The position numbers were made by a program, and so were the translations under genes. The notes under the pieces are model-generated. The model was given only the letters and a program-made list of their open reading frames with translations, did not search any database and had not been told where the DNA came from. From contig JAUZOQ010000028.1 of the NCBI GenBank assembly GCA_030706385.1, forward strand, positions 1 through 35,141: a DNA stretch of 35,141 nucleotides, given 5' to 3'. Every line of letters begins with the position of its first letter. Positions within the stretch are counted from its first letter, which is position 1. Of this stretch, positions 832 through 32,008 are shown piece by piece. The stretch is from Bacteroidota bacterium. Lineage in GTDB: Bacteria; Bacteroidota; Ignavibacteria; Palsa-1295.

Positions 832-2283
832 TCAGGGGACTTCTACAAGGTCAATCTTCATTGGCACTTCCGTCTTGATAATATTGGAGGGTTCGCTCTT
901 ATTGCCGGCCAGATCATAGGCTCGGATGTAGTATTGGTACGTTCTGCCGCTTGTGGTGACGTTATCGGTGTACATCGTTACCGTAACCGAATAGTAGTGC
1001 TCAAAATGCTTGCCGCCATCGGTGGAGCGCCAGATCTCGTAGCCGGCAACTTCTTCATTATCCGTCGCCTTTTCCCAGTTCAGACGGATCTGATTGGTGC
1101 GCGCCAGGAATTTCAGAGGTTCACGACTCTGCCAGCGTGGAGCTTCCGTATCATCGGAATACGGAGCCTGTAAATATTCCTTCGGCCAGAGGCCGCAGAC
1201 AACTTTATGGAAGGTTTCATCGAGTGCTTTGCAGACATTCCAATAGATGCACTTAACGATCTTCTCCTGGTTACCCTCTTTGATCTTCTTGATAATATCA
1301 GGATCGGCAAGCAAACCGCGCGCCATTCCGATCAGATCGGCTCGGTCGCTTTGCAAAACTTCTTCTGCGAGCAGCGGAGTGGCGATCTTCCCTGTTGCGA
1401 TGACGGGCGTATCGTATCCGTGCTTGCGAAGATTCTTTCTCGCTGCTTCGGCCATGTGAAGATTGTATCCATCGGGATATTCGGCAGGCGGCATGCAGCG
1501 ATCGCCGGAATAGCCGGTGTACGGATAGAGCACTTCGCCTTCTTTATGAATGGCATCTTCGAATTTTCCGCCGGCTGAAAGAGAAATGTAATCGACACCT
1601 GCTTCGGCCATACGCAGTGCGATCTCGGCAGATTCTTTAGATGTATAGCCGCCCTTAATACATTCCTCACCGAGGAATCGAACGCCGATCGGAAAATCAT
1701 CGCCGACCATTTTGCGAACTTGCTTGATAGCATTCAGCGGAACACGTAACCTGTTCTCCAATGATTTGCCGCCGAATTCATCGGGCCGCTTATTCCGCTT
1801 GGAGAGAAAGCTTGACATTGTATAGGCATGCGCCATGTGCAGCTCGACTCCGTCGTAGCCGCATTCCCTGGCACGCAGAGCTGCCTGGCCGTATTGTTCG
1901 ATAATGAGTTTTATGTCGGCCGGAGAGAGATCTTCGATCTTCTGTCGCCAGCCCGATCGGGCGATCTTGAGGAAATGAATGATCTGCGGAATAACTTTCG
2001 AGTCGCTCGTTGCATGCACTTCTTTGGCAAGTTGCGTAAGGCCCGGCTTATACTCCTCACCACAAATTCGCAATAGCGGGCCTGATTTAGCAGAGTGAAC
2101 GGCCATCGCTTCAACGACGATCAATCCCGTTCCACCTTTTGCGAAACGGACATATCGATCAGTGATATCCTGATTGACGAAGCCATCTTCGCCCGAAAGA
2201 CGTGTTACCATAGCAGGCACGACAAGCCTGTTCGGCAAGGTCAGCCCATTGATCGTATATGGGGATAAGAGTTTCTCGAACAT
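832..2283 (-). CDS. NADH:flavin oxidoreductase (old yellow enzyme family) with C-terminal fibronectin type III domain
   Basis: Residues 1-340 form an FMN TIM barrel of the OYE / 2,4-dienoyl-CoA reductase type: PNRLVVPAMVT (17-27), GVELHMAHAY (145-154) with the two active-site histidines, SKRNKRPDEFGG..ENR (161-178), and the phosphate-binding end IATGK..IGMARGLLADP (295-328). A cysteine cluster follows: Cys345, Trp348, Cys351, Cys363. In TMADH/FadH-type enzymes four cysteines there hold a 4Fe-4S cluster; here the second is Trp. The FAD/NAD(P)-binding domains of those enzymes are absent. Residues 380-475 instead form a clear Fn3 fold (LNWEKATDNEEVAGYEIWRS, YTD, YQYYIRAYDLAGNKSEPS). There is no signal peptide, so it is probably cytoplasmic. 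The substrate is unknown; enoate or enoyl reduction is the family-level guess. The start gives the canonical family N-terminus (MFEKLLSPYTINGL). Confidence 0.85.
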   Translation of the reverse strand: MFEKLLSPYTINGLTLPNRLVVPAMVTRLSGEDGFVNQDITDRYVRFAKGGTGLIVVEAMAVHSAKSGPLLRICGEEYKPGLTQLAKEVHATSDSKVIPQIIHFLKIARSGWRQKIEDLSPADIKLIIEQYGQAALRARECGYDGVELHMAHAYTMSSFLSKRNKRPDEFGGKSLENRLRVPLNAIKQVRKMVGDDFPIGVRFLGEECIKGGYTSKESAEIALRMAEAGVDYISLSAGGKFEDAIHKEGEVLYPYTGYSGDRCMPPAEYPDGYNLHMAEAARKNLRKHGYDTPVIATGKIATPLLAEEVLQSDRADLIGMARGLLADPDIIKKIKEGNQEKIVKCIYWNVCKALDETFHKVVCGLWPKEYLQAPYSDDTEAPRWQSREPLKFLARTNQIRLNWEKATDNEEVAGYEIWRSTDGGKHFEHYYSVTVTMYTDNVTTSGRTYQYYIRAYDLAGNKSEPSNIIKTEVPMKIDLVEVP

Positions 2284-2750: not shown

Positions 2751-3434
2751 TTACATTGTACATTCGATCGCATTCTCTCGCACGACTCCTGTAAGCATAT
2801 GATAATATGCTTTGGCAGCAGCAGCAGCGGCGGCGATGGCCGTTTCTTCATCGGCGGGTGAAGTAATGAGCGATGCTAACATGTCGCGCTCAGCTTGGCG
2901 ATGAATTTGATCGGCCTCTTCATGGACGCGGAAGAAGGCAAGGCCCTTATCGGAATTGACTCCGTAATATTTTGTCAATCCTTCGATCTTCGTGCGCGAA
3001 ACTTCGGGGATTTGCGATTCATATCCATAGAGCGCAGCAACGCCTTGAAGAGTGGAGCCGTGACGCGTAAGCTCGACAAATGTATCTTCCATGGCAGCCG
3101 TTTCTTTGTATGGGCTGGCATGGGTAACATCGGTACGATCGCAGCCAAGAGCTTCGGAAAAACGAAGCCAAAGCTCGGGATGATTCGCTTCACCCTGTTC
3201 CTCTTCCTGCAGATTCAGAAGAAGCTGCTGGCGGATAGCAATGTCAGTTGTATTGGCGTGCACGTTCGAAACGTAGCGGGGGAAGTTACGCTCGAAATGA
3301 TAATACTGCTTCGCATAATCCTGAAGCTGCGGATTGGTCAGCGTCCCGGCATTCCAGGCCTGGTAAAACGGATGATCCAAAACAGCATACTGCGCGATGG
3401 CAGCATCAAGACGGGCAAGAAAATTGGTTGTCAT
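2751..3434 (-). CDS. CADD-family di-metal oxygenase-like protein (putative p-aminobenzoate/folate route)
   Basis: This 227-residue all-helical TenA/PqqC-fold protein resembles Chlamydia CADD, a self-sacrificing dinuclear oxygenase proposed to make p-aminobenzoate for folate. With the ATG at 3434, family residues fall at a constant offset of 3 from my memory of CADD: Glu78, His85, Glu139, His171, Asp175 and His178 as metal ligands (LQEEEQGEANH, YGYE, FFRVHEEADQIHRQ). Tyr24 (HPFY) and Lys149 (SRTK) match the Tyr27 and Lys152 proposed to donate the ring and the amine. An upstream in-frame start at 3518 would add 28 residues lying within an intergenic stem-loop and promoter, so it is rejected. 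AAGAAG sits a few bases before the chosen ATG. TenA or PqqC itself is less likely. Confidence 0.85.
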   Translation of the reverse strand: MTTNFLARLDAAIAQYAVLDHPFYQAWNAGTLTNPQLQDYAKQYYHFERNFPRYVSNVHANTTDIAIRQQLLLNLQEEEQGEANHPELWLRFSEALGCDRTDVTHASPYKETAAMEDTFVELTRHGSTLQGVAALYGYESQIPEVSRTKIEGLTKYYGVNSDKGLAFFRVHEEADQIHRQAERDMLASLITSPADEETAIAAAAAAAKAYYHMLTGVVRENAIECTM

Positions 3435-31868: not shown

Positions 31869-31926
31869 TAAGAATGTAATTAGATGGACGTAGTCCTATA
31901 AGCAGGCAAGGCAAGGAAGTTGTTGC

Positions 31927-32008
31927 GGAGGGCGAGGGATTCGAACTCTCATAGCCTTGCGGCTGGCAGTTTTCAAGACTGCTGCAATACCATTATGCGA
32001 GCCCTCCG
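31927..32008 (-). tRNA. tRNA-Ser (anticodon UGA)
   Basis: The acceptor arms GGAGGGC / GCCCTCC pair perfectly, and the discriminator base is G, as usual for tRNA-Ser. The anticodon stem GCAGT/ACTGC holds the loop CTTGAAA, giving anticodon TGA, which reads UCA. The variable arm AGCC-GCAA-GGCT marks it as class II. The T-loop is TTCGAAT. One A-C mismatch is seen in the T-stem (GAGAG against CCCTC). The 3' CCA is not encoded. Confidence 0.93.

Follow-up and report, generated by a model that had tools for sequence, protein, structure and literature searches.

Two members of the CADD family have been proven biochemically as self-sacrificing p-aminobenzoate (pABA) synthases, CtCADD (CT610) of Chlamydia trachomatis and NePabS (NE1434) of Nitrosomonas europaea (PMC11965152). 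In both, a dimetal site activates O2, a tyrosine loses its side chain and is left as glycine, and a lysine serves as the amine donor (PMC11965152; PMC13108848). The donor lysine of NePabS ends as aminoadipate, and both carboxylate oxygens come from O2 (PMC11965152; PMC13108848). NePabS was shown in vitro to use its own Tyr25 and Lys159 (PMC11965152), and its gene rescues an Escherichia coli pabABC deletion (Satoh et al. 2014, as cited in PMC11965152). That Chlamydia lacks pabABC and that CT610 is linked to folate were both noted in 2007 (PMC1971073). Further environmental carriers are found in Chloroflexi and Sphingomonas (PMC11965152). Other heme-oxygenase-like oxidases, such as PqqC and BesC, share the superfamily and the fold, but their substrates are separate molecules.

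The window analyzed here, a whole stretch of 35,141 nucleotides from a Bacteroidota bacterium, encodes a 227-aa protein of this family (Table 1). The protein scored 270.7 bits in a profile search against TIGR04305 (E = 8e-81), above the curated cut-off of 200 bits for the CADD family, and matched the C. trachomatis structure 1RCW with 40% identity (E = 1.1e-44). These E-values exclude a chance resemblance. A longer frame of 255 aa, starting at GTG 3518, was ruled out, since the homologues begin at the methionine of the 227-aa protein. The nearest solved structures were those of CT610/CADD (1RCW and 8VA9), together with the 4-aminobenzoate synthase 9PJ4. The AlphaFold model (pLDDT of 94.4) superposed on CADD structures with an rmsd of 1.3 to 1.4 Å (1.3 Å for 1RCW and 8VA9) and a TM score of 0.90 to 0.95, and its best four PDB superpositions were all CADD, with the heme-oxygenase-like helical fold. 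Judged from its sequence, the protein is a member of the heme-oxygenase-like dimetal oxidase superfamily and, within it, of the CADD family, as expected from the original prediction of a CADD homologue outside Chlamydia. Its closest named relatives by CADD are in an Ignavibacteriae MAG (82% identical), a Bacteroidetes MAG (72%), and a Candidatus Kapaibacterium MAG (70%). On plasmids, only distant homologues (~30% identity) were found.

The alignment to 1RCW was free of gaps across all the named residues and showed a constant offset of 3. The six dimetal ligands, three histidines and three carboxylates, coincide (CADD to window protein: Glu81 to Glu78, His88 to His85, Glu142 to Glu139, His174 to His171, Asp178 to Asp175, and His181 to His178), and the sacrificial pair, Tyr27 and Lys152 of CADD, falls exactly on Tyr24 and Lys149. 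Ligands and pair had been predicted at this offset, and no misalignment was found. Also kept are the essential second tyrosine (Tyr43 to Tyr40; Tyr41 in NePabS), the relay residues (Tyr47 to Tyr44 and Trp92 to Trp89), and Tyr141, matched by Tyr138. The sole key position changed is Tyr170 of CADD, replaced by Phe167. Here the window protein resembles NePabS, which has Phe177 at this position, whereas its Tyr138 stands where NePabS has Phe148. The equivalents of Tyr25 and Lys159 of NePabS are present, and a loop of ~10 residues found in NePabS is missing in both CADD and the window protein.

Table 1. Features of the CADD locus in the window
Feature	Position	Strand	Details and basis
CADD-type (TIGR04305) gene, predicted self-sacrificing p-aminobenzoate synthase	2751..3434	minus	227 aa, ATG at 3434, stop at 2751; TIGR04305 score, 1RCW identity, AlphaFold model
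Tyr24 codon, predicted sacrificial Tyr (CADD Tyr27, NePabS Tyr25)	3363..3365	minus	alignment; invariant in homologues
Lys149 codon, predicted amine donor (CADD Lys152, NePabS Lys159)	2988..2990	minus	alignment; invariant in homologues
Codons Glu78 to His85, including metal ligands Glu78 and His85	3180..3203	minus	alignment
Codons Tyr138 (CADD Tyr141 position) and Glu139 (metal ligand)	3018..3023	minus	alignment
Codons Phe167 (CADD Tyr170 position) to His178, including ligands His171, Asp175, and His178	2901..2936	minus	alignment, conservation
Inverted repeat, 25 nt, 92% complementary, 4-nt loop	3484..3537		separates the CADD gene from the S9 peptidase gene upstream

In 297 genomes of the phylum, a profile search gave 24 homologues above the cut-off, the window protein included. 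The sacrificial tyrosine and lysine, the six ligands, Tyr40, Tyr44, Trp89, and Tyr138 were invariant in all of them, and each of the 24 carries Phe where CADD has Tyr170. When 80 named loci from many phyla were added, Tyr24, Lys149, and the six ligands were present in 104 of 104 proteins; since the patterns used to find these loci were built around HPFY and YE, the counts for Tyr24 and Tyr138 are partly selected while that for Lys149 is not, and the 24 phylum homologues are the cleaner set for invariance. This conservation bears on the reading that the protein is a CADD-family oxidase whose substrate is a separate small molecule, as for PqqC, BesC, and UndA, with pABA or folate being imported. 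The superfamily holds many such enzymes, the PqqC and BesC models match the protein weakly (only ~51 bits, far under their curated cut-offs), and PqqC structures superpose on its model, although at lower identity. An ordinary catalyst would have no obvious need for an invariant sacrificial tyrosine and lysine, and we consider such an oxidase unlikely, also in view of the folate genes and of the distribution described below.

The window genome is a 3.52-Mb Kapaibacterium/Ignavibacteria-like draft of 161 contigs, 96% complete. We found folP, folK, and, adjoining folK, folB (named from reading its sequence), as well as chorismate synthase. Profile searches, on which the gene absences in this genome rest, detected neither chorismate-binding enzymes (PF00425, found in 14 of 14 control genomes) nor class-IV aminotransferases (PF01063, found in 13 of 14). 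The genome therefore lacks PabB, TrpE, and isochorismate synthase by the first absence and PabC by the second. The genome thus keeps a folate pathway, and no pABA source other than CADD was found in it. It had been proposed that the self-consuming enzyme makes pABA rather than, or as well as, PabABC; with no PabB or PabC candidate in the genome, the first alternative is favored and the second is not. The novelty this implied for a free-living user does not hold, since NePabS of N. europaea was already proven (PMC11965152). The lack of PabB and PabC might instead reflect a gap in the fragmented and incomplete assembly, with CADD being redundant with PabABC. This is extremely improbable, as the PF00425 and PF01063 families are missing in their entirety, two other members of the same family listed as 100% complete (G164 and G208) carry CADD and also lack PF00425, and PabB was the best match in no CADD genome tested.

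The same searches show a chorismate synthase with no chorismate-binding enzyme to follow it, and no IlvE-type class-IV aminotransferase. The missing PF00425 and PF01063 families suggest auxotrophy for tryptophan and perhaps for branched-chain amino acids, or unusual routes. We found no publication on folate in Kapabacteria.

The distribution of CADD was complementary to that of PabB. In the phylum sample, PF00425 was lacking in 22 of 24 CADD genomes and in 5 of the 273 without CADD, a count in which seven of the 297 genomes were identified by deduction from the listed positives (Fisher test; P ~2e-26, uncorrected for kinship). The PF00425 proteins of the two exceptions were TrpE (G281) and TrpE plus isochorismate synthase (G276, judged the same as L095/G336), with no PabB. 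Among 50 named CADD genomes from many phyla, whose completeness was not given, 24 lacked PF00425. In the remaining 26, the best match of each PF00425 protein was TrpE, isochorismate synthase, or salicylate synthase. This classification is weaker for G303 and G339, where there are fragments, for G312, whose isochorismate-synthase-like match is weak, and for G343, where TrpE leads PabB by just 64 bits. With the overlap removed, the two sets comprise 73 CADD genomes (46 without PF00425 and 27 with it), and PabB was the best match in none of them. By comparison, PabB is present in at least 10 of 19 genomes of the same class that have no CADD (G004, G014, G019, G055, G093, G172, G196, G216, G228, and G268).

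Other CADD-less genomes of the class appear to lack both PabB and CADD. Another source of pABA or folate, by import or some other route, must therefore exist in the class, and the loss of PabB alone is no proof of CADD use. To this extent the genomes lend support to import. For the carriers of CADD, both import and a separate substrate are opposed by the complementarity with PabB and by the retention of folB, folK, and folP.

Filamentous cyanobacteria also carry CADD (Spirulina, Lyngbya, Okeania, Microcoleus, Tychonema, and Trichodesmium; L054, L056, L062, L082, L086, L109, and others). In those tested, PabB was never the best match, and the PF00425 genes were TrpE, isochorismate synthase, or salicylate synthase.

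Taken together, the gene very probably encodes a self-sacrificing pABA synthase that replaces PabABC in this organism; we give this reading a probability of about 0.88. Every residue shown to be necessary in CtCADD and NePabS is present, so the same reaction is most likely. We infer the chemistry from these two enzymes, and the physiological role is likewise inferred. The dimetal site (Glu78, His85, Glu139, His171, Asp175, and His178) would activate O2, and the oxidizing equivalent would pass to Tyr24 through aromatic residues, for which Tyr138, Tyr40, Tyr44, and Trp89 are candidates. The side chain of Tyr24 would be cut off the backbone, leaving a glycine, and would become the ring of pABA, with Lys149 supplying the amine and O2 the carboxylate oxygens. 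Each protein molecule would thus yield one pABA at most, which FolP would couple to the pterin product of the FolB and FolK steps.

The protein might have a second role, such as binding of a partner protein, besides pABA synthesis or in its place. The first description of C. trachomatis CADD gave it a role in host-cell apoptosis (earlier work, as cited in PMC11965152), but CADD belongs to an intracellular pathogen and the window protein to a free-living bacterium of the FCB group, a lineage that offers no such host target. No evidence supports a death-domain role for the window protein, and moonlighting as the sole role would leave the link to PabB loss unexplained. We regard such a role as very unlikely.

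For the pABA synthase reading, the residues at positions 141 and 170 (CADD numbering) are predicted to bear on metal use. In the 104 homologues, the pair was Tyr/Phe in 89, Tyr/Tyr in 14, and Phe/Phe in 1. The window protein, with Tyr138/Phe167, belongs neither to the Tyr/Tyr type (the CtCADD-like Mn/Fe subtype) nor to the Phe/Phe type of NePabS, which prefers Fe/Fe. In NePabS, the F177Y variant switched to Mn/Fe, while F148Y gave a metal-flexible enzyme (PMC11965152). Since the latter has the same pair as the window protein, we predict by analogy a metal-flexible preference (Fe/Fe or Mn/Fe), or an Fe-tolerant enzyme. With the natural Tyr/Phe pair, the two-residue rule for Mn/Fe versus Fe/Fe use can be tested directly.

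A divergent branch of the family was found in two genomes of one family (G109 and G160) that lack PF00425. Each encodes a 185-aa relative of CADD (L027, 1501-2037, and L028, 410-892) with a score of about 74 to 75 bits, under the family cut-off. In window numbering, these proteins keep the HPFY motif with the sacrificial tyrosine, the sacrificial lysine, Tyr40, Tyr44, and Trp89; Asp175 is replaced by Glu, and the Tyr/Phe pair is reversed. Another genome of this family, G196, has PabB and no listed CADD match. The 185-aa branch may represent a second, more compact form of the enzyme.

The gene neighborhood gave no link to folate. The window gene lies outside any folate cluster and is flanked by an S9 peptidase gene upstream and by a flavin oxidoreductase gene, with no folate gene adjoining. 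The close relatives share the S9 peptidase and other genes with no obvious folate role, which agrees with the contig belonging to their lineage, and clustering of the neighbors at the 80 named loci revealed no widely common gene family (at most 7 loci, from one lineage). The adjoining oxidoreductase (window positions 832-2283) is of the old-yellow-enzyme type with a weak C-terminal fibronectin-III-like match, an unusual combination. The inverted repeat is a possible terminator or hairpin. The genome carries related AATTCTCAATTC repeats at a few further sites. An Rfam search revealed no riboswitch or other RNA element near the CADD gene, the only match being a tRNA at 31926-32007.

The window protein is a well-supported new member of a family whose use by a free-living bacterium was already known from N. 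europaea. Three points go beyond the literature that we found: CADD and PabB are widely complementary (perhaps partly covered by Adams et al. 2014 and Satoh et al. 2014), Tyr/Phe is the common pair, and a short divergent branch exists. A broader proposal, to which we give even odds, joins three parts. The self-consuming enzyme would be the regular source of pABA in a wide range of free-living bacteria (Kapaibacteria, Ignavibacteria, filamentous cyanobacteria, Armatimonadetes, Verrucomicrobia, Acidobacteria, and others), replacing PabB in all of them; its usual Tyr141/Phe170 form, not yet studied in a natural enzyme, would be metal-flexible; and the 185-aa branch (L027 and L028), with Glu for Asp175, would be a second, compact self-sacrificing synthase.

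It is extraordinary for a cell to spend a whole protein on each vitamin molecule, and in the literature that we found only two such enzymes have been assayed. That PabB was the best match in none of the 73 CADD genomes suggests that, in many free-living lineages, the costly route has stably taken the place of the classic pathway and is not a parasite oddity. Why a single-turnover enzyme is kept becomes a comparative question, because sister genomes in the class have PabB instead.
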